Of a DNA stretch of 29,104 nt, positions 7,156-29,104 are shown piece by piece. Made by a program: the position numbers and the translations under genes. The notes beneath the pieces are model-generated. The model did not search any database. It was not told the DNA's origin and saw only the letters and a program-made list of their open reading frames with translations. How positions within the stretch are numbered: the first letter of the stretch is position 1; every line of letters begins with the position of its first letter. Source of the stretch: a virus; the IMG/VR virus record IMGVR_UViG_3300046777_001363, positions 1 to 29,104 of that record; one strand, 5' to 3'.

Positions 7156-8958
7156 TTAGTCAAAAGATCTGACGAAGTACGCTGTGCTGTCAACTCCAGA
7201 TACACTTTCTTGGACTGTGACTCCTGGATCTATTACAACCGATGAGTTATCTGAGCAGTAAAGCTTATAATTTTTATTGGCTTCTGCTAATGTAAAGGCA
7301 TTTTCGTAGAAGGCTATATTGCTATAAGTATTAGAGCCTCCGTAAATAAGACCGTCTTGGCTTTGATTAAACTTAATATCTGTGGCTGGGGCGTATAGAG
7401 TAAAGATTATATGATGAGATACATTGTCAAGTAAGAAAGCTGAGGTATTTGTCTGATTTGATACATTTACCCCATTTACGTAGAATGAGCTAATTCCGCT
7501 TTTTGTTATATCCCCATTGACTGCCCACTTTATTTCTGCAGAATCTGAAGAGAATAAAACATTTGCTCCGTCCCTTGGAGTAAAAAACATCTCTATTGTT
7601 TTTGGCTCAATGGGTAGATCTACAGAGAAGCCATGTCCATTGATCATAGATAGCCCGTTATATTGATTTTGTATTCTTACTGGATAATTAAAGTATCCAA
7701 GAGAGTAGTCGTAGTCTGAATATATCCTTGCTCCAGAGTTGTCTGAATAGCAATCTTTATTAGAATACATATCTATATCTAGTCCGCTAAAACCTGGAAG
7801 ATCAAATGACGAGTCGTCTGTAGTCATTGTGATTCTTATGTCCAGTATAGAACTATTTAAATTTTGATTTTTGTTGTAGTATGGAAGTGGAGAATTGTTT
7901 TTGCATTCGGCCCAAATTTCTCCTGGCACTGAAACTTCTACTAAAATGTTTTTTACGTCTTGCCCATATGATATTCTAGAAGAAACAATAGACTCTGGAT
8001 TTGTAACGTATATTCTATCCTCAAAGACAAATGACTTTGTCTCTGATAAGTCAGTTTTAGGAAACTCTATTCTGTTGTACTCTGGATTATAATATGCGTC
8101 TCCAGAAGCCATTTCCGCTAATGATTTTATGCCAGGATATCTGTAGGATATATCTGGCTTTATTGAGAATGAGTTTAATGAAAACAATATTCCTTCTTTA
8201 GAGTAAACAATCTGAGAATACTTTGTTTCTTTATATCCAGCAATGTAATGCCTTAATACTTTAGCAGACTCTATTTCATAATTATATACTGCGGCAGAAT
8301 CTACTATAAATTTTTTACCTGTATTTGCTGGCCCCAATGCAATTCTCATAGACTCATTTGTGAATTTAAATCCAGCAGTAATAAATTTCTCATCCACCAA
8401 AAAGCCGTTAACGTATAATGAAATTTTGTCTTTAGAAAATATTCCCACTACATGCATAGCTTTATTTTTAGATATTTTGTGCGATACATAGTCTTCAGAA
8501 CTACATTTAAAAACTATGTTCTCATTATTAAAGAATATACCTATGTTATTTACAGAGTCTCCCATAACTAAGTATTCTTGTAAATCGGAGTAATCTGGAC
8601 TAAACCATATCTCAAATGCAAAGGGGCTGTCTGGATTTTTATTTGTTCCAATACCTAATGCTTTTAGTTCTACTTGAGATATATCATTTATTTCAGTTCC
8701 TCTTACCCCCGCCCCAATAATAGGAAGAACTTCCATGTCAGAAGTCTCAATTGCATAGCCTTCCATTGAGTTTCCAGAATAATCAACTATAGGCAAACCG
8801 CTTACAGCAGCGTATGAAATTCCGTTGTCTTTTAAATCTTGATACGTAGAATAAAGTGTAAGTAGGTTATTGTATGTGCCTGCTTCGCCAGAACGAACCT
8901 CGTCTAATAAGAAAAAGGAAAGTGGGTTATCTTGCAAGACAGTATATTTATATGACAT
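7156..8958 (-). CDS. LamG/concanavalin-like virion protein
   Basis: A 600-residue protein with no signal peptide. Residues ~105-245 form a LamG/concanavalin-A-like lectin domain: PFAFEIWFSPDYSD, KAMHVVGIFSKDKISLYVNG and IDSAAVYNYE-type strands in the order expected for that fold. A second, more divergent copy lies at ~450-580 (IEMFFTPRDGANVLFSS, SFYVNGVNVS, SNIAFYENAFTLAEANKNYK). The region between (~260-440) is beta-rich and unassigned. Such proteins are usually glycan-binding fibre or spike components. The gene begins three bases after the collagen-like fibre gene, so the two are probably co-expressed and may form one appendage. Binding of a sugar receptor is inferred. Confidence 0.65.
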   Translation of the reverse strand: MSYKYTVLQDNPLSFFLLDEVRSGEAGTYNNLLTLYSTYQDLKDNGISYAAVSGLPIVDYSGNSMEGYAIETSDMEVLPIIGAGVRGTEINDISQVELKALGIGTNKNPDSPFAFEIWFSPDYSDLQEYLVMGDSVNNIGIFFNNENIVFKCSSEDYVSHKISKNKAMHVVGIFSKDKISLYVNGFLVDEKFITAGFKFTNESMRIALGPANTGKKFIVDSAAVYNYEIESAKVLRHYIAGYKETKYSQIVYSKEGILFSLNSFSIKPDISYRYPGIKSLAEMASGDAYYNPEYNRIEFPKTDLSETKSFVFEDRIYVTNPESIVSSRISYGQDVKNILVEVSVPGEIWAECKNNSPLPYYNKNQNLNSSILDIRITMTTDDSSFDLPGFSGLDIDMYSNKDCYSDNSGARIYSDYDYSLGYFNYPVRIQNQYNGLSMINGHGFSVDLPIEPKTIEMFFTPRDGANVLFSSDSAEIKWAVNGDITKSGISSFYVNGVNVSNQTNTSAFLLDNVSHHIIFTLYAPATDIKFNQSQDGLIYGGSNTYSNIAFYENAFTLAEANKNYKLYCSDNSSVVIDPGVTVQESVSGVDSTAYFVRSFD

Positions 8959-8961
8959 GTC

Positions 8962-10074
8962 TTACTGCTCTTCTAGTGCTTTAACTCTCGCTGTAAGCTC
9001 TTGGACTGCTTTAATTAATGGAGCAATAAACTGATCGTATCTAAGACCCTGCATTGAGTCTTCTTCTGACATATCCATTTTAACCCAGCCAGCAAAATCT
9101 TCTACGCCAGCCTCATCTAATACTTCTTTTACTTCTTGTGCGATAAGGCCATAGTGTGTTCTTGAGCCAGGAATAGAAACAACGTCTCCATCAACTACTG
9201 CTTTTCCGCCTTCAATAAATTTATATTTTACTGGATTTAAATCATTTATAAAATCTAGTCCTAGGTCTGAGTTTATTATGTCTGTTTTTAATCTTTGATC
9301 TGACGTGTTAATTGTTCCCGTATTAGAGTATATTGTTTTCCAAAATCTATTAGACGTAACACCGCTGCCAGCATCTGTTGGCTGACCAATAGAGTATAGG
9401 TTATTTGCAAGTGGGTACCAATTTGAATTTACTCCATAACCAGTAGTTGTTGGAATGTTTAAAGATATTGTTGTAGGAACTGGATCTATTGTTGCGCTTG
9501 ATCCAGGTATTCCTTGCGGGCCAGCTGGCCCAGTTGCTCCAGTTGCGCCTCTTGGAATTGTAAATGAAAAAATTGCGTTTGTTGAGGTTCCAGTATTTGT
9601 TACAGAAGCATTAGTGCCAGCAGCTCCTGTTGTTGTGGTACCAACTGATAAGGTTGTAGGTCCAGCTGGACCCTGCGGACCTTCAGGACCCATTGGGCCC
9701 TGTGGTAAAACTAAGTTTAATACTTGTTCTGGGCTTGTTCCTGTAATTGTTGCAGACGCTGATCCTCCTTCTACAACTGTTCCAATTGAAAGAATGTTTG
9801 AGGGTCCTGGGCCACCAATAATACCATCAATCCCTCTTGGTAATGTTAAGTTTAATATTGCATTTTCTGTTGTACCAACATTAACAACTGAAGCTGGTGT
9901 AGATGCACTAACAGTAGTCACAGTGCCTATGGATAAGGTCCCTGAAGGGCCCTGTGGGCCTGGATTAGCCTCTATGAAGGCTGCTATGTCATCGCCAAGG
10001 TTGCCAAGGTCTCTAGGGACGTCTGGCGTGTCTGTATAGTCTGGAAATCTCCAGCCATTTACTCCTGTGCTCAT
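8962..10074 (-). CDS. Collagen-like tail fibre with C-terminal S74 intramolecular chaperone
   Basis: A 370-residue protein. Short Gly-X-Y runs occur at residues ~39-45, 80-92, 125-139 (GPMGPEGPQGPAGP) and 175-192 (GATGATGPAGPQGIPG). Between them are three repeats of a ~35-residue beta module of the form LS(I/V)GT...ILNL.LP(R/Q)G. Residues 258-370 are a peptidase S74 chaperone domain: SDQRLKTDI at 258-266 supplies the Ser/Lys expected for self-cleavage, followed by HYGLIAQEVKEVL and a terminal coiled coil. The family trimerises fibres and then cleaves itself off. The gene follows the oxygenase array by 20 bases and has its own -10 six bases before the ATG. Most collagen prolines are in the X position, and GIP is the clearest Y-position proline. 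Confidence 0.88.
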   Translation of the reverse strand: MSTGVNGWRFPDYTDTPDVPRDLGNLGDDIAAFIEANPGPQGPSGTLSIGTVTTVSASTPASVVNVGTTENAILNLTLPRGIDGIIGGPGPSNILSIGTVVEGGSASATITGTSPEQVLNLVLPQGPMGPEGPQGPAGPTTLSVGTTTTGAAGTNASVTNTGTSTNAIFSFTIPRGATGATGPAGPQGIPGSSATIDPVPTTISLNIPTTTGYGVNSNWYPLANNLYSIGQPTDAGSGVTSNRFWKTIYSNTGTINTSDQRLKTDIINSDLGLDFINDLNPVKYKFIEGGKAVVDGDVVSIPGSRTHYGLIAQEVKEVLDEAGVEDFAGWVKMDMSEEDSMQGLRYDQFIAPLIKAVQELTARVKALEEQ

Positions 10075-10094: not shown

Positions 10095-10745
10095 TTACTT
10101 AATATATACATGTGCTGGGCTCATGTATCTAATGCCAGATGTAATTGGCTTGACTTCATGAATATACGGTTCTTGAGAAGGGAACATTATTAAGCTTCCA
10201 GCCTTTGGCTTTATTGTAATGTTGTGATTTGGAAAACTAATTTCTCCACCTTCGTAGTCGTCGTTTACATATGCAACAAGAGAAAATGCTAAGTCTGCGT
10301 TTCCGTCTTGTCCGTCAAAATGCGGACCCATAGACTGGCCTTGATTCCATGCTTTAATTGTTACGCTATCTAAGTTTAAATTGTAATTGTCTTTATCTAA
10401 ACCGTGTCTAGCTAAATATTTATCAGAACACATTTGAAAAGCCATTAAAAAGCTGTTTGCTATGTATAGTGTTCTTTTGTCTACAATATCTGAGCCAGTA
10501 GTTGTTTTTAAATTTGCTTTATTTATAGTTTTTGTTTTACCATAAATTAAATTTGAGTCATTACTTGCGGTCCAGTTTTCCCATTTAGATATTCTAGAAT
10601 AAGACTCTGGATACGTATCTATTTCATCAATGAATCTTTTTAGATCCTCTGGAAAGCTTAAAGCGTTCTCCCAATAGTATATGTCTGGACCTAGCATCTG
10701 AAGGTCAAACATTGTAAATTGCTTAAACTCTGCGTTGTTTTGCAT
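10095..10745 (-). CDS. 2-oxoglutarate/Fe(II) oxygenase, prolyl-4-hydroxylase type (copy 1)
   Basis: A 216-residue soluble enzyme. The double-stranded beta-helix core carries the iron ligands H142 and D144 (PHFDG) and H196 (YIHEV), with R206 (SGIRY) placed to bind the 2-oxoglutarate carboxylate. The linker NDDYEGGEISFP (161-172) is typical of the P4H/2OG-FeII_Oxy_3 family. Such enzymes couple decarboxylation of 2-oxoglutarate to hydroxylation of a substrate, usually a protein side chain. It is the last gene of the six-gene array. The ATG follows the previous stop by one base, with GGAAGGA upstream. The substrate is unknown. The adjacent fibre proteins are candidates. Confidence 0.85.
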   Translation of the reverse strand: MQNNAEFKQFTMFDLQMLGPDIYYWENALSFPEDLKRFIDEIDTYPESYSRISKWENWTASNDSNLIYGKTKTINKANLKTTTGSDIVDKRTLYIANSFLMAFQMCSDKYLARHGLDKDNYNLNLDSVTIKAWNQGQSMGPHFDGQDGNADLAFSLVAYVNDDYEGGEISFPNHNITIKPKAGSLIMFPSQEPYIHEVKPITSGIRYMSPAHVYIK

Positions 10746-10746
10746 T

Positions 10747-11499
10747 TTATCCTTCCACTTCAGAAGCTGGGTATTGTTCTCCTTGTGGGGTTATTCTTAC
10801 TCCCCTATTTCTATAATCTTCCCATTCTGCTGCCTCATCTTTTTGAATTGCTCTGACTTTTGCAAGTTCTTCCGCCCAAGCATCTCTTACTTCTTGTGGG
10901 TAATCGCTTTCTTCTCTATCGTCCCAAAATGAACCAAGGGTGTATCGAATAGACTTTTTGACAGTTGTAACCTCATGCATGTTGTGGAATCCTCCAGCAA
11001 AAGTTACAAGGGTTCCAGTCTTAGGAACAATTGTAAGCCCGTGCTTAAAGTTTAAAACTCCATCTTCAAAGTCGTCATTTAAATAAAGGAATGTTGCATA
11101 TCTGCTTCTAGTAAATGCACCAGAGACGCCATCATTAGATGTATTATCAGAATGCATATTTGCAAATGCACCTGGTGCCCATCTTTGAGAGTGCCAGCTT
11201 ATTTGAGACATCTGTTCTGGAGATTTACCAGACATGTCTGCAGTCGCATTAATTACTCTTTGTCTAAGGTCTTGAAAAAAATCTCCTGGTAAACCGCAAG
11301 CAATTGTGTCTGGATCATTTAGCTCTGGAGTTCCTGATGAGTATGACTCGTAAAATGAAATTGGCATCCATCTTAGCTGATCCTTTTCCATCTTAATGGC
11401 CAAAACATCTATGATAGCCTTACACTCTTCTGGAGTTAAAAAATTATCATATTGTACAATATCTGGCTTGTGTCTGGTTATAACCATATTTCTTTCCAT
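10747..11499 (-). CDS. 2-oxoglutarate/Fe(II) oxygenase (copy 2)
   Basis: A 250-residue paralogue of the neighbouring oxygenases. Iron ligands are H116 and D118 (NMHSDN) and H175 (NMHEV), and R185 (SIRYT) is the predicted 2-oxoglutarate anchor. The shared block is slightly altered to LNDDFEDGVLNF (140-151). The N-terminus reads HKPDIVQYDNFLTPEECKAI, a classic P4H-family opening. The C-terminal ~55 residues (from about 195) are a charged, mostly helical extension absent from copies 1 and 4. A second ATG four codons in (M5) has an equally good GGAAAG upstream, so the start is not certain. It lies one base after copy 3. Confidence 0.83.
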   Translation of the reverse strand: MERNMVITRHKPDIVQYDNFLTPEECKAIIDVLAIKMEKDQLRWMPISFYESYSSGTPELNDPDTIACGLPGDFFQDLRQRVINATADMSGKSPEQMSQISWHSQRWAPGAFANMHSDNTSNDGVSGAFTRSRYATFLYLNDDFEDGVLNFKHGLTIVPKTGTLVTFAGGFHNMHEVTTVKKSIRYTLGSFWDDREESDYPQEVRDAWAEELAKVRAIQKDEAAEWEDYRNRGVRITPQGEQYPASEVEG

Positions 11500-11500
11500 G

Positions 11501-12319
11501 TTATTTACCTTGCCCCTTTTTGTTGCTCATATAATCTTCATATGAAACTTCTACGCCATCTTGGAAATAAACCATATTTCTTTTGTCGTCATGATCTATT
11601 CTTTCCTGCTCCATTTTTGCCCATCTGTAAGCGCCAAATCTTCTTTGGTTTTCAAGCCATTCTTCTGTGCCATTGTGTGGTGTCATGATAAAGTTTCTAA
11701 CAAAAAACTTTTCATTTGTGTTAATTGTTTTTACTCCATGATAGTATGGCTCTGTAGATGGGAAAACAAGAATGTCTCCCGCTTGAGGCTTATGGTTAAT
11801 AAGGTTGCCTCCAACATAAAATTCGATGTCTCCGCCTTCGTAGTCGTCGTTAATGTACATTGTGCATGTTATAAAAAACTTATCTCCAGGCATATCTTTT
11901 TGAGAAGTTATGTGGTCTGTATGATATTGCATAGTCATGCTATTGTCTAGCGTATCAATATTTGCATGATATTTAGAGTAAGAGCATCCGCTAAAATGCC
12001 AGCCTTCTGGCAACTCAATACCGTGTCTTTCTACGTAATCCATGATTACTTTGTTGTAGGCCTCTTCAACCTCTTCAACAAATTTCTTTTCTTTAATAAA
12101 CATTTCTTCTTTTTGAACTTCATCGGAGACTTCTCTTGGATCTTTCTTTTGCGAATAAGTTCCAAAATGTGCCCACGGATCCCAGGTCTTTAAAAAGTAT
12201 TTGCCCTCTGATGTCTTTTCAGATTCATTCATCACTTCATATAGCTGCTTTGGATCCTTTAAAACATTTCGATAGATATCTACTTTTGGATAAAGCTCTA
12301 CATAATCTAATTTACTCAT
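11501..12319 (-). CDS. 2-oxoglutarate/Fe(II) oxygenase (copy 3)
   Basis: A 272-residue protein if translation starts at the ATG at 12319. That start overlaps the preceding stop as ATGA and has AGGAGA about ten bases upstream. A longer frame from 12355 overlaps the neighbour by 40 bases and is less likely. Iron ligands are H133 and D135 (YHTDH) and H194 (YYHGV), with R208 (FFVRNF) as the 2-oxoglutarate anchor. The shared block is INDDYEGGDIEF (156-167). The N-terminal ~100 residues are longer and more charged than in the other copies. The C-terminus (~215-272) is a Trp/Arg/Glu-rich helical tail. Function beyond oxygenase chemistry is unknown. Confidence 0.85.
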   Translation of the reverse strand: MSKLDYVELYPKVDIYRNVLKDPKQLYEVMNESEKTSEGKYFLKTWDPWAHFGTYSQKKDPREVSDEVQKEEMFIKEKKFVEEVEEAYNKVIMDYVERHGIELPEGWHFSGCSYSKYHANIDTLDNSMTMQYHTDHITSQKDMPGDKFFITCTMYINDDYEGGDIEFYVGGNLINHKPQAGDILVFPSTEPYYHGVKTINTNEKFFVRNFIMTPHNGTEEWLENQRRFGAYRWAKMEQERIDHDDKRNMVYFQDGVEVSYEDYMSNKKGQGK

Positions 12320-12990
12320 GGCTGTTTTTCTCCTGTATGTTTTTTTATCGTCCAAAAAAATGGGGATGTAAATCTATTTCCAGCAGTAACTGGACGTACA
12401 CCATGCGTATAATTCATATCGCCTGGGAAAAAATATGCTGCTCCAGCAACTGGCTGGAATTCAATTCCGTGTTGTGGGAAATACAATTCTCCACCTTCAT
12501 AGTCATCATTAAAATAAAATAGTCCAGCAAGATCATACCAAGGGAAATCGTTTGCCCTTCCTTTTTCTGGACCAGAATGAAATTCTTTATCTGCGTGTGG
12601 CTCTTGTCTAGCGCCTACTGGCCACCTAACAATTGCTGGACCAGTTTCTTTTGCATCTACGCTAAAGAATGCGTCTACTTCTACTTTAAGTCTATCTATC
12701 ATGCTATAGATTAATTCTAGTATAGATGGATCTGATGCCATCAAAGAGTTATACGTGCATACTCTATCTTCCCAAATTGTGTGATCGTATAAAACTAGTC
12801 CATCTGCATCTCTATGTGTTTCTGTTACGTCCCAAATTTTATTGTTTAGCGCAAAATCCATAAGGCGTTTACGTTCATCTAAAGAAAGAAAATCTCTTAT
12901 CTCAACGATATTATCAATTGAGTTCCCAAAAAATCCTGAAGGGGTTATTGATTTTGGTGGCTCATGCGACCAGCTATTTTCTAGTTTCAT
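12316..12990 (-). CDS. 2-oxoglutarate/Fe(II) oxygenase (copy 4)
   Basis: A 224-residue enzyme with H132 and D134 (PHADK) and H196 (YTHGV) as iron ligands and R206 (GNRFT) as 2-oxoglutarate anchor. The shared block FNDDYEGGELYFP lies at 160-172. IVEIRDFLSLDERKRLMDFA near the N-terminus is the usual P4H-family helix. Four bases overlap at both ends with its neighbours. Although inside a polycistronic array, its ATG is preceded, six bases away, by an extended -10 located in the end of the upstream gene, so it may also be expressed from its own leaderless transcript. Confidence 0.86.
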   Translation of the reverse strand: MKLENSWSHEPPKSITPSGFFGNSIDNIVEIRDFLSLDERKRLMDFALNNKIWDVTETHRDADGLVLYDHTIWEDRVCTYNSLMASDPSILELIYSMIDRLKVEVDAFFSVDAKETGPAIVRWPVGARQEPHADKEFHSGPEKGRANDFPWYDLAGLFYFNDDYEGGELYFPQHGIEFQPVAGAAYFFPGDMNYTHGVRPVTAGNRFTSPFFWTIKKHTGEKQP

Positions 12991-13715
12991 ATATCCATTA
13001 TATCATTTCTATTTTTTAGGCTGTTATTTACCTTTAATCTAACTGCTTTTATTTGGTGTGAACCAATTTTTCTTTTTAAATGATCTACTGCGTCCCTATA
13101 AAAATTTGACCAAGTTGCAGTTCTATTCAATTCATATATAACATTAGAATACTCTGTGGAATCAAAGCTAGGCTCTGGTAAAGATGAGAGGTCTTTAAAT
13201 TCTATCTCAGAGTTATTTATTGCAGATAAATCTATTGGCATTACTGATATTATAGGGGTGCCCGCTTTAATTGTTATAACCTCATTTGCCTTTGTTATCA
13301 TCCAGGCGGCTGGCAGTTCTCCTCTATAAAAAGATGTACTAATTAATGTGGTAAAAGGTGTTGCACCATCAATAAAAAGATTTGGAACTGGCATAGACAT
13401 TAATGTTGAGTTTTCATCAGTCTTAAACATTATTCCAGTATTAAAGCTTATTGTTGCATTTGCTCTGCCAGGGTATGCATATTTTTCTCCAGATAATATC
13501 TTTACATGGTCGGGAGTGCTATCTGTAATGCCATCCCAAATGAAAGATATGTCTTCTGGGAAAGATATTCCCCAGCCAAGCTGATTTGTCAGGCTTACTG
13601 GAAAACATTTATATGCGTGAGCCTCAAAGGTTTGATCCATCCATTCTCTTTTTACAGACAATGGGTGGACTTCGCCAAACCCTTCTCTAACAAAATAAGC
13701 TTCTATGTTATGCAT
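12987..13715 (-). CDS. DUF6065-like protein, function unknown
   Basis: A 242-residue soluble protein with no HxD motif, so it is not a further oxygenase. It opens with a beta strand, then HPLSVKREWMDQTFEAHAYKC (residues ~17-37), SLTNQLGWGISFPED (~41-55), a central FNTGIMFKTDENSTLMSMPVPN (~100-121), and IKAGTPIISVMPI (~169-181). This order of a WM motif, an early Cys, N-x-x-GW, an N-TGI strand and a P-VPN turn matches my recollection of DUF6065, a family with no assigned function. Eight bases overlap the upstream oxygenase and four overlap the downstream one. It may supply a partner or substrate-handling role for the oxygenases, which is inference. Confidence 0.6.
   Translation of the reverse strand: MHNIEAYFVREGFGEVHPLSVKREWMDQTFEAHAYKCFPVSLTNQLGWGISFPEDISFIWDGITDSTPDHVKILSGEKYAYPGRANATISFNTGIMFKTDENSTLMSMPVPNLFIDGATPFTTLISTSFYRGELPAAWMITKANEVITIKAGTPIISVMPIDLSAINNSEIEFKDLSSLPEPSFDSTEYSNVIYELNRTATWSNFYRDAVDHLKRKIGSHQIKAVRLKVNNSLKNRNDIMDI
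12997..13005 (-). promoter_or_regulatory. Leaderless-type extended -10 promoter inside the oxygenase array
   Basis: TGA-TATAAT on the minus strand is followed by exactly six bases (GGATAT) and the ATG at 12990. The motif lies within the last codons of the DUF6065-like gene. Its sequence from AAATGATA to ATATATGA closely matches the one before the first oxygenase at 14421. No Shine-Dalgarno sequence is present beyond a GG dinucleotide. Confidence 0.5.
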
Positions 13716-14421
13716 TTTGATTTTTACCAGATTTAGAATCTTCCTCTAGCCATCTTGATCTCATCTGCATAAACTCTGGTCTATGTGCATGATCGTTATA
13801 GTCTAGCATTGTAACTACTGAAACCTTCATTCCAGACTCAACTGGCATTGCCCTGTGAGAAAATAGATATGTTGAAGGGAAAATATAAAGGTCTCCTGCT
13901 CTTGGCTTAATGTCTAGGTTAAGCTTAGGGAAATAAAGGTTCCCGCCTTCGTAATCATCATTAATGTATGCAACTAATGATACTGTGGCGCTATAAGAAA
14001 ATCCATGATCTGCATGTTCTTGAAAATGCTGCCCTTTCCCATATCGAATGCAATTCATAACTTCCCAATAATTCATTCTTACGTTATACATACTGCAGTA
14101 ATCTTCAACTGCTGGAGATTGCGACTTTTTTAAATCTGACCATAGGCTAGATACTAATGTTTCAGTTTTTGATATAGGGTTTTTAATTTCTCCCACTTTA
14201 ATATCTTCACAGTCTCTATAAGATGGCCTTTTTTCGCTGTATCCAACAAAACCAAAGGTCCAGGCGTACCTTGTATCATTTTCGCTAACAGCTGACTCGC
14301 CGATTTGATTTAATCTATTTATAACATCAATATCATTTTTAATAGCATTTCTATATACCCAAACTCCTGGGAAAAGCTGTTCTTTAGAAGAAAAGCTATG
14401 GGGCTCATTTAAATTTGTCAT
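13708..14421 (-). CDS. 2-oxoglutarate/Fe(II) oxygenase (copy 5, first gene of the array)
   Basis: A 237-residue enzyme, the promoter-proximal member of the array. Iron ligands are H136 and D138 (EHADHG) and H189 (FSHRAMPV). At the position where the other four copies have Arg it has K199 (SGMKVSVV). Lys serves as the 2-oxoglutarate anchor in animal collagen prolyl-4-hydroxylase, so activity is still expected. The shared block INDDYEGGNLYFP is at 163-175. EQLFPGVWVYRNAI near the N-terminus and a charged C-terminal tail are specific to this copy. The gene has no Shine-Dalgarno sequence and begins six bases after an extended -10. Its last eight bases overlap the DUF6065-like gene. Confidence 0.85.
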   Translation of the reverse strand: MTNLNEPHSFSSKEQLFPGVWVYRNAIKNDIDVINRLNQIGESAVSENDTRYAWTFGFVGYSEKRPSYRDCEDIKVGEIKNPISKTETLVSSLWSDLKKSQSPAVEDYCSMYNVRMNYWEVMNCIRYGKGQHFQEHADHGFSYSATVSLVAYINDDYEGGNLYFPKLNLDIKPRAGDLYIFPSTYLFSHRAMPVESGMKVSVVTMLDYNDHAHRPEFMQMRSRWLEEDSKSGKNQNA

Positions 14422-14451: not shown

Positions 14452-14483
14452 CACAATAGCAAGGGTTGCCCCTTGCTATTGTG
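14452..14483 (-). terminator. Very strong GCAA-tetraloop hairpin between fibre gene and oxygenase array
   Basis: A perfect 14-bp inverted repeat (14452-14465 with 14470-14483) encloses four bases. On the minus strand the loop reads GCAA, a GNRA tetraloop, closed by three G-C pairs, so the RNA hairpin should be extremely stable. It lies ten bases after the stop codon of the 277-residue FN3 protein. The expected U-tract is missing: the bases after the stem are CTATATAAAC. It may be a terminator, an RNA 3'-end protector or a processing site. Confidence 0.6.
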
Positions 14484-14492
14484 TGTTATATA

Positions 14493-15326
14493 TTAGTAAG
14501 CTCTGATAAATCGTGAGCCAAAGGTAGGTGGTGCAAAGAACCCTGGCGGTGCGAAGAACACTGGTGGTGCAAAGAAGCTTGGTGGCGCAAAGAATACTGG
14601 TGGCGCAAAGAAGCTTGGCGGTGCGAAGAACACTGGTGGTGCGAAGAATCCTGGTGGTGCGAAGAATCCTGGTGGTGCGAAGAAGCTTGGTGGGAAGAAC
14701 GGTGGGAAGAACGGTGGCGCAAAGAAGGTAGGCGACAACGTAGTAACCGTATTTGTATTATTGGATGCTGTTGATCTTCCATTAGCATTATCTGCATATA
14801 CGTTATAGTACTGAGATGTACCAGCAGTATCTGCAATTGATACAGACAAGCTGGTTGAGTTTCCAGTCGTTGCATCGTTTCCAACAATATAGTAATTAGT
14901 TATTGCAGTTCCACCATCTGCTGGAGCTGACCATTGAACTGTATTTGCGTTAACTCCAGCTGTTGCAGAAGCGCTTGTTGGAGCGCTTGGAACAGTAGTA
15001 GCCGTAGCAGTTGCAGTATTAGAATCTGTTGAGGTTCCATATGCATCTACTGCTTTCACAGTATAAGAATAAAGTGTTGCTGATGTTAATCCAGTGTTTG
15101 AAAAAGTAACAGTTGGTGCATTAACTGTTGCAATTTCTGTACCCCCTCTAAACACCTTATATGATGTTGGGGCATTTCCTGCTGCTGGGGCTACCCAGGC
15201 TAGGTCTATGCGTCCATCACCGAATGGTCTATTGGCGCCAACATTTGTTGCTGTTAAACCAGTAGGAGGATTTGGACCGATAAAGTTATCTTGAGCTGAT
15301 GCTCTTCTACCTATATTTTTTGACAT
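14493..15326 (-). CDS. Two-FN3 protein with (FFAPPx)n C-terminal tail
   Basis: A 277-residue protein. Residues ~18-110 and ~112-197 are two fibronectin type III domains (PPTGLTATNVG, then DLAWVAPAAG, SYKVFRGG; and PSAPTSASAT, QWSAPADGGT, YYNVYADNANGRS). Residues 201-267 are a Phe/Pro array with ten FFAPP units and two FFPP units, the spacer residue being mostly V, S or G. The last ten residues, TFGSRFIRAY, are identical to those of the 785-residue protein. FN3 domains on phage virions commonly aid surface attachment. The tail has no known function that I can name. AGGAATAGGA precedes the start. It is the last fibre gene before the oxygenase array. Confidence 0.82.
   Translation of the reverse strand: MSKNIGRRASAQDNFIGPNPPTGLTATNVGANRPFGDGRIDLAWVAPAAGNAPTSYKVFRGGTEIATVNAPTVTFSNTGLTSATLYSYTVKAVDAYGTSTDSNTATATATTVPSAPTSASATAGVNANTVQWSAPADGGTAITNYYIVGNDATTGNSTSLSVSIADTAGTSQYYNVYADNANGRSTASNNTNTVTTLSPTFFAPPFFPPFFPPSFFAPPGFFAPPGFFAPPVFFAPPSFFAPPVFFAPPSFFAPPVFFAPPGFFAPPTFGSRFIRAY
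14526..14726 (-). repeat. 18-bp-unit repeat array encoding FFAPPx, degenerate copy
   Basis: In-frame imperfect 18-bp units encode the Phe-Phe-Ala-Pro-Pro-x tail of the FN3 protein. Units differ by synonymous changes (GCA/GCG, CCA/CCG, TTC/TTT) and by the spacer codon (V, S, G). Two units near the upstream end are shortened to FFPP. The degeneracy suggests this array is older than the one at 20631. Confidence 0.9.
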
Positions 15327-15350: not shown

Positions 15351-17876
15351 TTACGCCTTTAGGTCTCCAGCAAGTAACCATGTGTCTGTTGCGACCTTGG
15401 TTATTGTTGCTGATGAGCTAGTTGTTCTTAACTTTAGTCCTGGAGTTCTCAAAATTGTAACTCCAGCTGCTTCCACAAAGTTTGCATCTGTTCCAGCTGA
15501 CTGGTAGAAGCTTATTGAAGTTCCTACTGGATAAGCTGTAGTTGCATTTGTAGGCACTGTAATTGCATGTGCTCCAGAAACTGGAATCAATTGATCTCTT
15601 AGAGCAAGACCACCTGTTGATAGGTTATATGCTCCAGAAATTGCTGTTCCAATTGTTGTTAGAGAAGGAACACCTTGCTTTGTTTGTGTGCCGTCTGAGA
15701 AGACTACACCAGATGAAGGAGTTACAGTTGTTGCTTCAAATGCACCTACCTTAAGATCATCAAGCGATCCTTGTGTAAAGTCTACTGTTGTTGAAGGCTC
15801 TGTTGTTACACCCTTAAACAACTTCCATTTAGCATCAGATACGTCTCTTACAAGACCCGCATGCTTTGCCGCTCCATCATTGTATCCAACTATAATACCA
15901 AGGTCAACTGTGTTTGCTGCATTTTGGTGAGCAAGTTGAACCATGTTATCTTCAATTGTGATAGATGTTGCTGATGCTGAGAAGTTATTTCCATTTACAG
16001 TTAGGTCACCGTCTACTACTAGGTTGCCATCAACTTCAACATTTCCTGTAAATGTTGCTCCTGCAAGGGAAGCCTTTGCATCAAGTGCTGTCTGTGTAGC
16101 AGTTGATACTGGCTTATTTGCATCTGAAGTATTATCAACATTTGCAAGGCCTACTGAAGACTTTGTAAGTGCTGCTACTGCTGCTGCAACCTTAGAGTCT
16201 GCTGCTGTACCTGCTGCTGTAATTGCATCTGCTTCTGCTGTATCAGCATATTCCTTTGTTGCCAAAAGTGCTGTGTCTGCAATTCCATGTATACCTGTAG
16301 TATCTGATTCGTGGCTTGAAAGAGCTGTTGCAGCTGAAGCAAACTGTGTCTGAATACCTGATGTAACTCCATTTAGATAACCAATTTCAGTTGCGTCAAC
16401 TGAGCCAATTGCTGTTGTTGATGGAAGAACTACTGCTCCAGTGAATGTTGGAGAATCAATTGGTGACTTTGTATCTAAAGCCTCGTCTAATCCAGCAATC
16501 TTTGACATTGCTATTTCTGCTGCCTCAGATATCTTAGCGTCTGTAATTGCTAAGTCTGCAAGCTTTAGGGTAGTTACTGCAGAATCTGCAATTTTGTCAG
16601 TTATTACTGCTGATGCAGCTAACTTTTCAGCAAGCACTGCGCTGTCTATAATCTTTGCTGTGGTTACTGCACCATTTACAATTTTAATTGTGCTAACTGC
16701 ATCATCTGCAATTTTTGCTGTTACAACTGATGAGTCTGCTATTTTTCCTGATGTTACCGCATTCACGGCAATCTTTGCTTCAGTTACAGCTCCGTCTGCT
16801 ATTTTTTCTGTAGCAACTGCAGCGTCTGCAATCTTTGAAGAAACTACTGCATCTGCAGAAAGCTTAAGAGTTCCAACGGAATCGTCAGGAATTCCTTCTA
16901 ATTTTGTGTTAAGCTGTGTTTGAATTGGACCATTTACGCCTGCTAGGTGTTGAATTTCTGGGTTAGTAACCGCTCCAATTCTTGCTGAATCTGCGTATAA
17001 ATGTCCAATCTCTAAATCTTCTTTTGTGTAATTTGTAAAGTCTACTGTTGCGCCAGGCTCAGTTGTTACACCTGCGAACAACTTCCAAATTCCATTATCT
17101 GAAGCATCACGAACAAGACCAGCATGCTGGTATGTTCCATCGTTAAATGCTGTTACGATACCAAGATCTAATACATTGGACTGATTTCCATCACCCATGT
17201 AAATTAGTGGATCTTCATATGAAACGTTTGTTGAGCTTACTGTTGTTGTTGTTCCAGTAACTGTTAGGTTTCCGCTTATATTTACATTGTTTGCAGTTAG
17301 CGTGTCAGCTGAAGTTACATTGTCTGCTGTTACTGTTCCTGCAGAAACTGTTCCTGATGTATTAATGTTTGTTGTTAAAACGTTTAATGGAAGTTGGTCT
17401 TGAGGAACCTTAGCATTTGCATCAAGTGAGGCAACACCGTTCATTACTCCTCTATCAGCCACTTCTATATAATCACCTAAAGAGTTATTTACTCCGCTGA
17501 TTGCTATATCTGTGTATGACTCTGCTGCTGCAATAGCTGCTGCTTCTGCTGCAGATGCTTCTGCTGAAGCAAAAGCCTTTGTAGATATTACGTCTGTATT
17601 TACAGTTATTGTGATGGTGTTTGCTCCATCATCATAAGTTTTTGTTAACCCAGCTCCCATTGAAAGAGCTTGATCAATAGCGTCTTGGGAAATTTCACCA
17701 ATTGCTGCTGTATCTGCTGCGGCATATGAAAGAGCGGTCCATGTAGATGAACCATTACCGAATTTAAACTTATTTGTGTTTGTTTCAACACCCATTTCAC
17801 CTGCAGCTAAAATTGGATTTGCTGAGGTCCATTCAGAGGATGTACCTCTTCGTACTTGGATTCTTACTGTTGACAT
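15351..17876 (-). CDS. Long modular tail fibre with Mtd-like N-terminus
   Basis: An 841-residue fibre. Residues 1-50 (TVRIQVRRGTSSEW, ILAAGEMGVETNTNKFKFG, STWTAL) match the virion-attachment N-terminal domain also seen in major tropism determinant proteins. An Ala-rich helical stretch (~100-125) follows. A ~100-residue beta module with FNDGTYQHAGLVRDAS lies at ~200-300 and recurs at ~615-720. Residues 341-450 are eleven tandem decapeptides of the form DxAVxTxKIA, as in many long tail fibres. Two EI..L.GV..(G/P)IQTQ tail-fibre repeats are present. The C-terminus (~745-841) is a small beta domain. It likely reaches towards the host receptor. Its promoter is an extended -10 with AAAGGGG upstream of the ATG. 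Confidence 0.85.
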   Translation of the reverse strand: MSTVRIQVRRGTSSEWTSANPILAAGEMGVETNTNKFKFGNGSSTWTALSYAAADTAAIGEISQDAIDQALSMGAGLTKTYDDGANTITITVNTDVISTKAFASAEASAAEAAAIAAAESYTDIAISGVNNSLGDYIEVADRGVMNGVASLDANAKVPQDQLPLNVLTTNINTSGTVSAGTVTADNVTSADTLTANNVNISGNLTVTGTTTTVSSTNVSYEDPLIYMGDGNQSNVLDLGIVTAFNDGTYQHAGLVRDASDNGIWKLFAGVTTEPGATVDFTNYTKEDLEIGHLYADSARIGAVTNPEIQHLAGVNGPIQTQLNTKLEGIPDDSVGTLKLSADAVVSSKIADAAVATEKIADGAVTEAKIAVNAVTSGKIADSSVVTAKIADDAVSTIKIVNGAVTTAKIIDSAVLAEKLAASAVITDKIADSAVTTLKLADLAITDAKISEAAEIAMSKIAGLDEALDTKSPIDSPTFTGAVVLPSTTAIGSVDATEIGYLNGVTSGIQTQFASAATALSSHESDTTGIHGIADTALLATKEYADTAEADAITAAGTAADSKVAAAVAALTKSSVGLANVDNTSDANKPVSTATQTALDAKASLAGATFTGNVEVDGNLVVDGDLTVNGNNFSASATSITIEDNMVQLAHQNAANTVDLGIIVGYNDGAAKHAGLVRDVSDAKWKLFKGVTTEPSTTVDFTQGSLDDLKVGAFEATTVTPSSGVVFSDGTQTKQGVPSLTTIGTAISGAYNLSTGGLALRDQLIPVSGAHAITVPTNATTAYPVGTSISFYQSAGTDANFVEAAGVTILRTPGLKLRTTSSSATITKVATDTWLLAGDLKA
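16527..16856 (-). repeat. Eleven tandem 30-bp units coding DxAVxTxKIA
   Basis: Within the 841-residue fibre, eleven consecutive 10-residue units keep A-V at positions 3-4 and K-I/L near positions 8-9. At the DNA level the 30-bp units have diverged, so they are old and maintained by protein structure. Such repeats form extended shafts in trimeric fibres. Confidence 0.85.
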
Positions 17877-20593: not shown

Positions 20594-22951
20594 TCAGTAG
20601 GCTCTTATAAATCTAGATCCGAATGTTGGTGGTGCGAAGAACACTGGTGGTGCGAAGAACACTGGTGGTGCGAAGAACACTGGTGGTGCGAAGAACACTG
20701 GTGGTGCGAAGAACACTGGTGGTGCGAAGAAGCTTGGTGGTGCGAATGTTGGTGTAGCGCAACCTGCTTGTGCTGCTGCAGACAAGGCGGCGGCAGATGT
20801 TGATCTATACTTTAGAACTTCTCTTGCAGATGCTGAGCCAAGAGTTACATCGGCTGGTATAGATGCTGCTGTATATGGACCAGAAACAGATGGTGCAGAT
20901 ATGTAGACTCCAGAGAAATTATTACAATTACTATATCCAGTATAATAAGTTACTTCAGGAGGAGGTGGTGGTGCCTCATAGTTATATCTGTATACAGTTA
21001 TTGTAGGAATTGGAGATGCATCTACTGATGTGCCAGCTGCTGGAGACTGAGAGGCAACTAAACCTTGCTTTGTGTAATCTGTAGTTGCAACCGACGAACC
21101 CTCTGAAACATTATAACTTGATGTGCTAGAAGGATTATATGATCCAACTAAATTTGGTATTGTAAATTGAGCTGGTGCAAAAGCTGGTGGGGCAAATACT
21201 GGAGGTTCGCAAGCTGGTTGTACTGCAGCGGCCAAGGCGGCGGCAGATGTTGATCTATATCTAATTACTACTCTTGCGGTGCTGGGACCAGTTACAACAT
21301 CTGTAGGAATAGATGCAGCACTATATGGCCCAGTTACAGATGGTGCATCTAAATAAGGATATCCATTGTTAGCATTACATTCAGAGTAGCCTATGTAATA
21401 AGTTACTTGAGGTGTGGACTGATATGTATACTTATAAACAGTAATTGTAGGCTTTGGAGATGTGCTTACAGAAGTACCAGCAGCTGGGGACTGAGAAGCA
21501 ACAATTCCTTCTTTAGTGTAGTCTGTAGTTCCAACTGCTGTTCCTACTACAATATCATAATTTGAAGTACTATCAACATTGTAAAGTCCAACTAAGTTTG
21601 GTATTGTATATGTTGTAGGCGGGATTGGAGTTGACTGTACAGAATTACTGCTATATGTTTTGCCTGTTAGCTGTAAATCGGTTGTTAAAACTTGCACTGA
21701 AGATGTGATATTAGTATTATCATATTCTGTAGAGTCACCAAGATCTAAAGTAGCTCCTATTCCCCATGGTATGGTTGTTCCATTAGAATACCACTCGTGT
21801 ATGTAAGAATATATAGAAGATTCATTACTCCATGTTCCATTTGTGGTGGTAAATACTCTTCCTCCACCAGAAACCGTTGGTGCCACTTGGTTAACTGGCA
21901 TTGGAACTGCTGGATATGTTATAGAAAGAGGTGGCGAAGAAGTCCATGAGGTCTGAGTAAATCTAGGAGCTGTTCCATTTACGGTAATTGTAAATGAACC
22001 AAACGTGGTTCCACCTACTCCAATTTCATTAATAGTATAAGATGTTTGTGAAGGATTTCCAGTGAAATAAGAGCTAGTATAAAGCTCTCCATTATTGTGT
22101 ATGATCCATTCTGTAGGCTGAATTAAGTTTAGTGACCAGCTAAAAGTTCCACCAGTAGAGTTTGAAACCATTGTTGTAGTAACAGAAGGCTTATTTGGTT
22201 TTAGATCACCAACTGATGCATTTTTGCCAAGCCCAGTTAATGTCATTCCAGATGCATTTGAATCATTTTTTGGATTAATTAAAATTCCTAAAGTTCCATC
22301 AGCACTACCAGTATCTATTGTTATGGTATCAACATCTCCAAGTGATTGGTTTTCTGTAAATGAAACTTCTGGTCCTTGGTATTGTATATAAAAATTGTTG
22401 GCTCCAATTGGTTTTGTCCAATCAATTTTAACTACTCCGTTTGATATAACAGATGCAGATACATTAGAAAGTTTTTGTGGGGCAATTATAGGGCTAGCAA
22501 TAGTATATATATCGGTTTCATTATCTCCAGCAGAGTTTGTTGCAGTAACCTTACATCTTACTACATACCCAACATACTTAAGGCTTCTTAAAGAATTCCA
22601 TTCGTCTTCATCTAAAAATAAAGTGCTTGATGTTTTGTCCAATATATTAGACCAGTTGTACCCACCTGAGCTATATGGAGACTTTTGCCATTGATATTTA
22701 AATGATGTTGGAGAGTTTTCCCAGACTCCATTAGATACAGATACTGTCTCTTGGGCAGCATAAAGATATACTCCCTCTTGCAAAGACAAGACTGGTAGCT
22801 CTGTATTTTTTGGTTTTAAATCAAGTAGAGATTTCCATTCTGATCCGTCCCAAATATAGGCCGCTTTAGATTCATTCCATGTTGTTCCATCATGAATCTG
22901 TACTTTTTTTAAAGGATTCCAGTTGGAACCGTCAAAAATATTTAGCGGCAT
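20594..22951 (-). CDS. Ig/PASTA-like multidomain tail protein with (FFAPPx)n C-terminus
   Basis: A 785-residue virion protein. Residues 1-45 contain three short DG-x-x-W repeats. Ig-like modules follow (~55-150 and ~355-440, both with G-W/T-W-S/E-N and a Y-W/E-W strand), with an FN3-like domain near 157-250. Residues 450-516 and 598-655 resemble PASTA domains: IPNLVG at the start and ASQSPAAGTSV before the last strand. Each is followed by a ~57-residue Cys-containing module (526-582, 676-733) ending YRSTSAAAL. Residues 735-775 are six FFAPP units, then the tag TFGSRFIRAY. PASTA domains bind peptidoglycan, so attachment to a Gram-positive wall is plausible. AAGGAGA precedes the ATG. Confidence 0.83.
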   Translation of the reverse strand: MPLNIFDGSNWNPLKKVQIHDGTTWNESKAAYIWDGSEWKSLLDLKPKNTELPVLSLQEGVYLYAAQETVSVSNGVWENSPTSFKYQWQKSPYSSGGYNWSNILDKTSSTLFLDEDEWNSLRSLKYVGYVVRCKVTATNSAGDNETDIYTIASPIIAPQKLSNVSASVISNGVVKIDWTKPIGANNFYIQYQGPEVSFTENQSLGDVDTITIDTGSADGTLGILINPKNDSNASGMTLTGLGKNASVGDLKPNKPSVTTTMVSNSTGGTFSWSLNLIQPTEWIIHNNGELYTSSYFTGNPSQTSYTINEIGVGGTTFGSFTITVNGTAPRFTQTSWTSSPPLSITYPAVPMPVNQVAPTVSGGGRVFTTTNGTWSNESSIYSYIHEWYSNGTTIPWGIGATLDLGDSTEYDNTNITSSVQVLTTDLQLTGKTYSSNSVQSTPIPPTTYTIPNLVGLYNVDSTSNYDIVVGTAVGTTDYTKEGIVASQSPAAGTSVSTSPKPTITVYKYTYQSTPQVTYYIGYSECNANNGYPYLDAPSVTGPYSAASIPTDVVTGPSTARVVIRYRSTSAAALAAAVQPACEPPVFAPPAFAPAQFTIPNLVGSYNPSSTSSYNVSEGSSVATTDYTKQGLVASQSPAAGTSVDASPIPTITVYRYNYEAPPPPPEVTYYTGYSNCNNFSGVYISAPSVSGPYTAASIPADVTLGSASAREVLKYRSTSAAALSAAAQAGCATPTFAPPSFFAPPVFFAPPVFFAPPVFFAPPVFFAPPVFFAPPTFGSRFIRAY
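20631..20738 (-). repeat. 18-bp repeat array encoding FFAPPV, homogeneous copy
   Basis: Five consecutive 18-bp units are identical at every base and encode Val-Phe-Phe-Ala-Pro-Pro. A sixth unit differs only in the spacer codon (Ser). Perfect identity points to recent expansion by slippage or recombination, and unit number is likely variable. Confidence 0.92.
20753..21604 (-). repeat. Tandem duplication of PASTA-like plus Cys-module unit
   Basis: Two ~400-bp units lie in the 785-residue protein (about 21604-21206 and 21160-20753). They align along their whole length at protein level. A 27-base stretch around GGCGGCGGCAGATGTTGATC is exactly repeated at about 20783 and 21233. The linker between the units holds a short FAPPAFAP run, a degenerate relative of the C-terminal tail. 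Confidence 0.85.
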
Positions 22952-27332: not shown

Positions 27333-29104
27333 TTAGGCGGATATATCTACAAGCTCACAATTTCCATCTGAGCTGCAGGCAAGCGTGGCGTTTGTGGAAG
27401 TTCCGTCTTCTGTCTCATAAAAAGAAAGATCTTCCCATCGAATATTGGAAGGCATTTTTGAAAGTAGCTCCTCATATTCTTCTTTAGATACTTCTTGATA
27501 AGGGGCTTGCTTATATGTGTGCTCTGAATGAGGTAGGAATGAAATTCCAGAAACATCATCAAAGTTTTTATAAACCCATGCTCCAACTTCCATCCACTCA
27601 TCTTCTTTTACAGATACAGTAATTGAAGGCTTGTGCTCACACCATGCTCGCTGATAAACTAGCCAAATGTTTAGGTGCTCAATAGCAGTTAAATCATTTC
27701 TAACAATTGCACCTTCTGGAGCTTTTACTGGAAATGAAAAAACGTAAGTCTCATTTGGCTTCATAACATCGTCTTCTACTGGAATACCAACTTCTTTTAA
27801 GAAAGTAGAAATTGGGTCACCCTTAGATCCACGAACTGTACGAATGTAATATGGTGAATGCCATGGATGCATTCCTGAAGATACCCCGACCAATTGGGAA
27901 ACTGTACCAGAAGGCTTTACGCATGTAATTGCTGCAGACTCAGGAATCCCAATTTTCCCAGACTCTTCTTTATTTACTGCTCTTGCTTTTTCACGCAATG
28001 TCATAAGAAATGCTTCAAGTGCTACTAGGTCATTCTTACCAGACATAAATTTGTGTCCAAACTGACCAGTTAAAGAAACTCCTAACAGTCTTTCTTCTTC
28101 TGTATTATCTTTCCAAATTTTGCGGATATATTTAAAGTCTGTCAGAGTAGATTGCCATGTTCCAAGGATAGTTGCCAGCTCTACTTTTCTCTCAATTTGT
28201 TCTTTGCTATCGTTTTCACGTAATACAACTTCTGAAAGATTGCAGAACTGATAAGGACGTAGAATAATTTCCGAACAAGGGTTTGTTCCGTAATGGATCT
28301 CTGGATCTCTGCGACCATATTTAGCTGCTTGCGCCTGCGCTGCTGCAACATTATAGATTCCACGCTCTCCAGACTTTGAGTCATACAAAGACTTCCATTC
28401 TGCAATAAATTGTTCCATTTCTGGTTTCCGAGAATAAGCAACAGAGTTATTTGATAGTGCTCTTTGTGGACTTGCTTCCCACCAGTTTCCTGCTTTAGCT
28501 TGTGCCATTTCAATGTCGTTAATGTTTGAAAGCGAAATCATTGCAGAGCGTCTAACTCCACCGACCACTACTACTTCACCAATCTTGCACATTATGTCAT
28601 GGCATTCAATTGGCTTGAGATTTCGTCCAGCTGCACTCTTAAACTTTGCAATTGTAAAATCAAAAAGATTAACAAGTGGTTGTGGACCAGATGATCTTCC
28701 ACCCATTGTTTTAAGTCTTGCGCCAGCAGGACGAACTTTCGAAACATCAATTGCAGGGATGTGTCCTGTCCAAAGCAGCGCAAGTAGTTCACGATAAGCC
28801 TTTGCCCAACCTTGTTTTGAATCTTCTACTACAATAACAGTATCAGATTTTTCAAGTTTTTCTGGGACGGCAGGAAGCTTATTGATGTATTTGTATTCTA
28901 CTGAGAATCCAACACCAGTTCCGCACATAAGAATATACATTGTTTCGTCAAATGTTCTAGGAGAATCAACTGGTACAAATGCACAGTTATATCCAGCTAC
29001 ATTATCTCTTTCAAGTGCAGCTCCAGATGTCATAACAGATCTCATTGATGGCATAACGTTTCGTTCAAAGACAAACTCTTTTAATTCCGCTACTAGCTTC
29101 TCAT
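27333..29104 (-). CDS. nrdJ: Class II (B12-dependent) ribonucleotide reductase, partial (N-terminus outside window)
   Basis: About 590 C-terminal codons are visible and the frame is open to the right edge. Counting from the first internal Met (29054), C24 in GYNCAFVPVD and C271 in QFCNLSEVV are the expected redox pair. N258-C260-E262 in NPCSEIIL is the active-site triad with the thiyl cysteine. PSGTVSQLVGVSSGMHPWHSPYY and MPSMRSVMTSG are also conserved. The terminal CSSDGNC gives the mobile redox cysteines. The sequence is most like monomeric adenosylcobalamin-dependent triphosphate reductases, which make deoxynucleotides without oxygen or a second subunit. No intein or frameshift is visible. 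It precedes the holin-like gene by about 66 bases. Confidence 0.85.
   Translation of the reverse strand, partial: EKLVAELKEFVFERNVMPSMRSVMTSGAALERDNVAGYNCAFVPVDSPRTFDETMYILMCGTGVGFSVEYKYINKLPAVPEKLEKSDTVIVVEDSKQGWAKAYRELLALLWTGHIPAIDVSKVRPAGARLKTMGGRSSGPQPLVNLFDFTIAKFKSAAGRNLKPIECHDIMCKIGEVVVVGGVRRSAMISLSNINDIEMAQAKAGNWWEASPQRALSNNSVAYSRKPEMEQFIAEWKSLYDSKSGERGIYNVAAAQAQAAKYGRRDPEIHYGTNPCSEIILRPYQFCNLSEVVLRENDSKEQIERKVELATILGTWQSTLTDFKYIRKIWKDNTEEERLLGVSLTGQFGHKFMSGKNDLVALEAFLMTLREKARAVNKEESGKIGIPESAAITCVKPSGTVSQLVGVSSGMHPWHSPYYIRTVRGSKGDPISTFLKEVGIPVEDDVMKPNETYVFSFPVKAPEGAIVRNDLTAIEHLNIWLVYQRAWCEHKPSITVSVKEDEWMEVGAWVYKNFDDVSGISFLPHSEHTYKQAPYQEVSKEEYEELLSKMPSNIRWEDLSFYETEDGTSTNATLACSSDGNCELVDISA

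Follow-up and report, generated by a model that had tools for sequence, protein, structure and literature searches.

A candidate hydroxylation module of five 2-oxoglutarate oxygenases and a DUF6065 protein linked to FFxPP-repeat proteins in a putative actinobacterial phage

A virus record of 29,104 bases (IMGVR_UViG_3300046777_001363, hereafter the window) carries an array of five 2-oxoglutarate (2OG)-Fe(II) oxygenase genes and one gene for a DUF6065 protein, directly downstream of a gene whose product ends in a repetitive FF(x)PP tail. From comparative sequence analysis we consider it probable that the region is a dedicated hydroxylation module in which the five oxygenases and DUF6065 act on the FF(x)PP tails of co-encoded virion proteins. 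The original prediction for this DNA had proposed a dedicated modification pathway, and its association with the virion is supported by dozens of phages in which the array stays flanked by fibre genes; we looked for arrays away from fibre genes and, for the most part, did not find them. The array and the two proposed substrates are encoded as follows.

13708-14421, minus strand: 2OG-Fe(II) oxygenase copy 1 (237 amino acids), first gene of the array; PF13640 E = 2.3e-13, HADH
12987-13715, minus strand: DUF6065 protein (242 amino acids) between copies 1 and 2; PF19541 E = 3.8e-28
12316-12990, minus strand: 2OG-Fe(II) oxygenase copy 2 (224 amino acids); PF13640 E = 8.5e-8, HAD
11501-12319, minus strand: 2OG-Fe(II) oxygenase copy 3 (272 amino acids from ATG; 4-base overlap with copy 2); PF13640 E = 2e-8
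10747-11499, minus strand: 2OG-Fe(II) oxygenase copy 4 (250 amino acids); PF13640 E = 1.4e-7
10095-10745, minus strand: 2OG-Fe(II) oxygenase copy 5 (216 amino acids); PF13640 E = 1.1e-11
14493-15326, minus strand: FN3-domain protein with a C-terminal (FFAPPx)n tail (277 amino acids), directly upstream of the array, proposed main substrate; fn3 E = 3.9e-9
14496-14726, minus strand: FF(x)PP tail of the FN3 protein, 12 units from residue 201, ending in TFGSRFIRAY
20594-22951, minus strand: PASTA-domain fibre (785 amino acids) whose C-terminal module matches that of the FN3 protein, second candidate substrate; PASTA E = 3.6e-6
20597-20731, minus strand: FFAPPV tail of the 785-amino-acid fibre, six FFAPP units, ending in TFGSRFIRAY

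Against PF13640 (2OG-FeII_Oxy_3), each oxygenase scores above the curated Pfam cut-off (E 1e-7 to 2e-13), and all five retain intact catalytic residues, with the HxD...H motif and the 2OG anchor at H136/D138/H189 and K199 in copy 1, H132/D134/H196 and R206 in copy 2, H133/D135/H194 and R208 (or K204) in copy 3, H116/D118/H175 and R185 in copy 4, and H142/D144/H196 and R206 in copy 5. Each of the five also contains the NDD(Y/F)E(G/D)G block, and pairwise identity among them is 24-43%, found mainly in the catalytic core. The five divergent reading frames with their HxD...H, Arg/Lys anchor and common block, as first described from the DNA, are borne out on the minus strand; the accompanying statement that the genes overlap or nearly touch holds if the DUF6065 gene is counted, a sixth array gene absent from that account, and does not hold between copies 1 and 2 without it. 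An AlphaFold2 model of copy 1 (predicted local distance difference test score, pLDDT, 92.9) adopts a double-stranded beta-helix, and its top Foldseek matches are the Chlamydomonas prolyl 4-hydroxylase (P4H) CrP4H-I (PDB 2jig, 3gze), PHD2, Dictyostelium PHD and chlorovirus vCPH (5c5t), with 5l9b also among the top entries. Profile searches concur in placing copy 1 near peptidyl-prolyl hydroxylases, and the nearest fold class of the modelled protein is that of the peptidyl-proline hydroxylases.

To place the copies relative to one another, a tree was built from 187 oxygenase representatives and three cyanophage outgroup sequences. Each window copy falls into a separate ortholog clade shared with distant phages, with Shimodaira-Hasegawa-like support of 0.998, 0.994 and 0.949 for the clades of copies 3, 4 and 5 and moderate support for clades 1 and 2; recent local gene amplification is ruled out by this sharing. 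HxD...H is at least 90% conserved within every one of the five ortholog groups, the 2OG anchor residue of group 5 is less than 90% conserved, and the ratios of non-synonymous to synonymous substitution rates (dN/dS) against near relatives are 0.02-0.12 for all five copies, indicating strong purifying selection. Because the copies occupy their own clades, conserve HxD...H and show such low dN/dS, five conserved, non-redundant enzymes are being maintained, and we judge the array to be genuine, of long standing and selected for catalytic function. Among IMG/VR homologs, arrays hold 5-8 oxygenases, and the order FN3-FFxPP gene, copy 1, DUF6065, copies 2, 3, 4 and 5, fibres and portal is kept in dozens of contigs.

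In relatives, the gene upstream of the array bears FFAPPx, FFPPFFPP or YFPPFFP tails, and we name the repeat peptides FFAPPGFFAPPV and FFPPFFPP as candidate substrates. Within the window, the FN3 protein and the 785-amino-acid fibre are otherwise unrelated, yet they share the identical TFGSRFIRAY end, as if the module had been exchanged or kept alike. Many relatives' FN3-FFxPP proteins possess an extra C-terminal intein/Hint-like domain (L011:953-2233, L060:705-2267, L222:7873-9171 and others), which matches PF14890 below its cut-off (E = 5e-5 in L011, 2e-4 in L222) and suggests that the repeat protein may undergo self-cleavage or splicing. Three contigs of another phage type (L396, L423, L436) encode fibres of up to 1080 amino acids with FFPP repeats, with 5-6 oxygenases elsewhere on the contig.

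The association between repeats and enzymes was assessed by scanning IMG/VR with the DNA of FFxPPxFFxPP alone, so as not to select on oxygenases. Among the matches listed, 79 FFxPP genes have 2 kilobases (kb) or more of downstream sequence, and in 75 of these cases a 2OG gene on the same strand follows within 2 kb, often after a gap of 24-90 bases; the class of the 785-amino-acid PASTA fibre, which lies further upstream, is counted separately from these. Controls read in the same way, again among the matches listed, gave a nearby 2OG gene for only 4 of 56 collagen-like genes in IMG/VR and an oxygenase for 0 of 37 FFxPP matches in cellular genomes. In the other direction, 33 distinct arrays have 3 kb or more of DNA upstream, and every one of them has a repeat gene there. 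Since the scan counts are samples that include related contigs, Fisher values calculated from them overstate independence. Cellular homes for the repeats were considered and rejected: the FFxPP matches in genomes resemble chance or unrelated proteins.

A contrast between viruses matched by their portal gave the same picture. We compared 58 distinct portal relatives with 8 kb or more of upstream sequence. The array, the repeats and DUF6065 are all present in 43 of them and all absent from 10. The remaining five have the array with fewer than four repeats; four of these loci (L035, L042, L119, L216) seem to begin too close by for the repeats to be judged, and the fifth (L125) has three repeats. 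The portal tree requires three changes in the array, and the repeats change in the same direction each time, never the opposite. The linkage of array, DUF6065 and repeats also extends to a second lineage, a contractile-tailed phage of 204,904 bases in which a short PASTA-like (FFxPP)n protein lies beside homologs of copy 1, copy 2 (on the opposite strand) and DUF6065, with a copy-3 homolog further off. This phage has a sheath, a portal (phrog_9232) and a head protein (phrog_9206) unlike those of the window, as assigned with PHROGs, and it carries WhiB genes. With this phage included, the association spans unrelated virions and several scaffold domains (FN3, PASTA-like, S74). As the gene set travels with FFxPP proteins, presumably components of the virion, across related and unrelated viruses, the repeats are likely to be modified by the enzymes, and the FFxPP-tailed protein is the best-supported candidate substrate.

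We turn to how such a module might work. The five non-redundant hydroxylases, together with DUF6065, would hydroxylate the tails of the FN3 protein and of the 785-amino-acid PASTA fibre, most likely on their prolines, and the enzymes may differ in the position or carbon that each one attacks. The hydrophobic, Phe/Pro-rich tail would be converted into a more polar, extended rod of the polyproline type, presumably to the benefit of the phage, and in some relatives this rod may be further decorated with sugar or sulfate. DUF6065 is encoded in 112 of 121 distinct arrays, and its AlphaFold2 model (pLDDT 93.2) shows weak similarity to a dUTPase-like beta fold (E about 2e-4). Our guess is that it might be a substrate-binding or scaffolding partner; a search for literature on DUF6065 found no paper, and the module offers a handle on this conserved family. 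A second, distantly DUF6065-related family, D2, occurs in 42 of the 121 arrays (for example L237:9616-10356, L214:11342-12082 and L229:6536-7279), with its best public-phage matches, at about 30% identity, among hypothetical proteins of haloarchaeal tailed viruses encoded near tail-fibre genes.

Further candidate modifying enzymes accompany a minority of arrays. Sulfotransferase homologs, one with a clear PF03567 match, are found in 13 of 121 arrays, members of the Asp/Asn-hydroxylase family (PF05118) likewise in 13 of 121, and a PF11397 GlcNAc (N-acetylglucosamine)-transferase in six; we take the PF11397 family to include the Skp1 hydroxyproline GlcNAc-transferase. In the 13 arrays, sulfotransferase-like and Asp/Asn-hydroxylase-like genes separate the repeat gene from copy 1 (L264:4350-5072, L155:1214-1921, L203:4782-5369); neither of these accessory genes was seen in the window. 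The accessory transferases fit a sequence of hydroxylation followed by decoration. In its broadest form, which we put forward tentatively and hold to be slightly less probable than not, the proposal is of a multi-enzyme line of 2OG hydroxylases and DUF6065, with optional sulfotransferase or GlcNAc-transferase, that makes hydroxyproline-rich and possibly glycosylated or sulfated FFxPP rods in actinobacterial viruses and is exchanged between unrelated tailed-phage lineages.

Several observations weigh against the proposed hydroxylation of FFxPP tails. A second scan with FFPPFFPP revealed a looser link, with an oxygenase within 2.5 kb in 52 of 66 cases among the matches listed; five more have one in the locus and three more elsewhere on the contig, giving 60 of 66 overall, and the six without an oxygenase come from contigs no longer than about 38 kb. 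In L420 the laminin-G, g112 and portal genes come directly after the gene of an FFPP-Hint protein (3-785), and no array separates them from it; this contig is cut off upstream, which leaves array loss and relocation indistinguishable. The three independent presence/absence changes on the portal tree are too few for a sign test to reach significance. The modified residue could also be phenylalanine or the variable one instead of proline, and a PF11397 GlcNAc-transferase, present in so few arrays, was not seen among the window proteins scanned.

The fibre genes on either side of the array bring other substrates into consideration.

15351-17876, minus strand: Mtd_N-type fibre
8962-10074, minus strand: collagen-like fibre with S74 chaperone domain, 3' of the array; PF13884 E = 4.8e-15, 11 Gly-X-Y triplets
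7156-8958, minus strand: laminin-G fibre

On the minus strand the window reads Mtd_N-type fibre, FN3-FFAPP protein, copy 1, DUF6065, copies 2-5 and collagen-like S74 fibre, then laminin-G fibre, a small gene, portal, protease and major capsid protein. With five ancient, non-redundant paralogs amid several fibre genes, and with extra 2OG genes elsewhere in relatives' genomes, the array might modify several fibre or baseplate proteins, one enzyme each, the FFxPP tail being one target among several. We regard this as unlikely, because laminin-G and collagen-like fibres persist in array-less relatives and only the repeat class tracks the array. The original suggestion that each enzyme serves a different site or fibre is for the same reason not supported as stated: FFxPP alone follows the array, and collagen-like fibres are common without an oxygenase.

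A narrower alternative makes the collagen-like Gly-X-Pro repeats of the adjoining tail fibres the substrate of hydroxylation. The downstream fibre at 8962-10074 has short GPxGPx runs, the profile matches include collagen hydroxylases, and published work on viral P4H genes offers the same guess (PMC9301287). Against this, the longest collagen repeats occur in close relatives that lack the array: seven of the 10 array-less relatives have 70-89 collagen-like triplets in one gene, compared to 0-35, and in many cases 0, in array-bearing ones. Together with the scarcity of 2OG genes near collagen-like genes in IMG/VR, this portal-matched contrast leads us to reject collagen-like fibres as the main substrate and makes the alternative very unlikely; for this phage group, the FFxPP linkage argues against collagen.

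A metabolic or regulatory role, in which the enzymes draw down 2-oxoglutarate or modify a host protein such as EF-Tu, appears very unlikely as well. Pseudomonas P4H modifies EF-Tu, and the folds matched by copy 1 include Pseudomonas P4H/EF-Tu structures. Such a role, proposed for cyanophage 2OG genes (PMC3037559), leaves unexplained both the joint gain and loss of FFxPP genes and DUF6065 with the array in different lineages and the need for five separately conserved catalytic clades. Oxidation of nucleic acid, glycan or lipid (DNA hypermodification or surface sugar modification), which other 2OG enzyme families carry out and to which some PHROG labels (DNA endonuclease, ferrochelatase) might point, is likewise very unlikely, since the closest folds are protein-prolyl hydroxylases and not AlkB, TET or phytanoyl types and the array sits in the structural region, unlike the 2OG genes of S-SSM5 and P-RSM1, which sit among DNA genes.

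The proposed hydroxylation of FFxPP tails has partial parallels in known systems. The prolyl 4-hydroxylases of Chlamydomonas and plants, which act on hydroxyproline-rich cell-wall proteins, share with the phage enzymes the fold (2jig, 3gze), HxD...H, a proline-rich repeat as likely substrate and the possibility of later glycosylation; they are single, secreted enzymes acting on Ser-Pro or poly-Pro, whereas the phage encodes five together with DUF6065 and an FFxPP repeat. The vCPH of chlorovirus PBCV-1 (5c5t, a top match) and the giant-virus enzymes are likewise virus-encoded and of the 2OG prolyl hydroxylase fold, but vCPH is one enzyme of a eukaryotic virus, and in the bacterial phages studied here collagen-like repeats do not track the array. 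The Dictyostelium Skp1 pathway, in which a P4H is followed by a hydroxyproline GlcNAc-transferase, resembles the few relatives that pair oxygenases with PF11397, a parallel drawn from family knowledge and one not seen in the window. Cyanophages (T4-like Kyanoviridae) encode several 2OG-Fe(II) oxygenases per genome of the same Pfam family, sharing about 25-30% of their residues with copy 1. The genes that we inspected are placed beside glycosyltransferase or tail genes or else between uvsX and gp41, and FFxPP had no match in the three genomes tested. Direct descent from the tested cyanophage genes is unsupported, as these are very distant and stand in other contexts.

For phage 2OG genes, which are common in aquatic phages, the literature has proposed collagen modification, 2-oxoglutarate drawdown and DNA repair (PMC9301287, PMC3037559); the FFxPP tails of named, putative virion proteins add a specific and testable candidate substrate. 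Our search of the literature, with most subscription journals outside it, found nothing on the FFxPP repeat or the module. If the proposal is true, freshwater actinobacterial phages possess an elaborate protein-hydroxylation system.

The boundary between the FN3 gene and copy 1 has features suggestive of transcriptional separation.

14452-14483 (about), minus strand: terminator-like hairpin between the FN3 gene and copy 1, with a 14-base-pair stem
14456-14451 (-35) and 14433-14428 (-10), minus strand: promoter-like TTGTGC-17-TACAAT about 7 bases from the copy 1 start, by consensus match only

Most relatives with adjoining FN3 and copy 1 genes have a hairpin of differing sequence at the same spot, together with TTGACA/TGnTATAAT-like (TGnTAyAaT-like) elements. 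A simple promoter/terminator scan found promoters no more often than in shuffled sequence and missed the promoter-like site, which, like the hairpin, emerged from the comparison of relatives. The element is placed for a nearly leaderless copy 1 start, and the array seems to form a transcription unit by itself. This arrangement suggests separate transcripts for the putative virion protein and the enzymes, which would fit a relation of catalyst to substrate.

The host is very probably an actinobacterium, since the portal resembles that of Streptomyces phages (57% identity to those of the Stanwilliamsviridae) and WhiB genes are present in most of the larger related contigs. A close cultured relative was looked for and none was found; Streptomyces phage BillNye has neither PF13640 genes nor FFxPP repeats. 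Freshwater actinophages have reportedly been isolated on Planktophila-type hosts (PMC10202952). Judging by the relatives, the habitat of the window's virus is probably fresh water. At the far end of the window lies a ribonucleotide reductase gene with a class II-type insertion domain (27333-29104), truncated by the window end.

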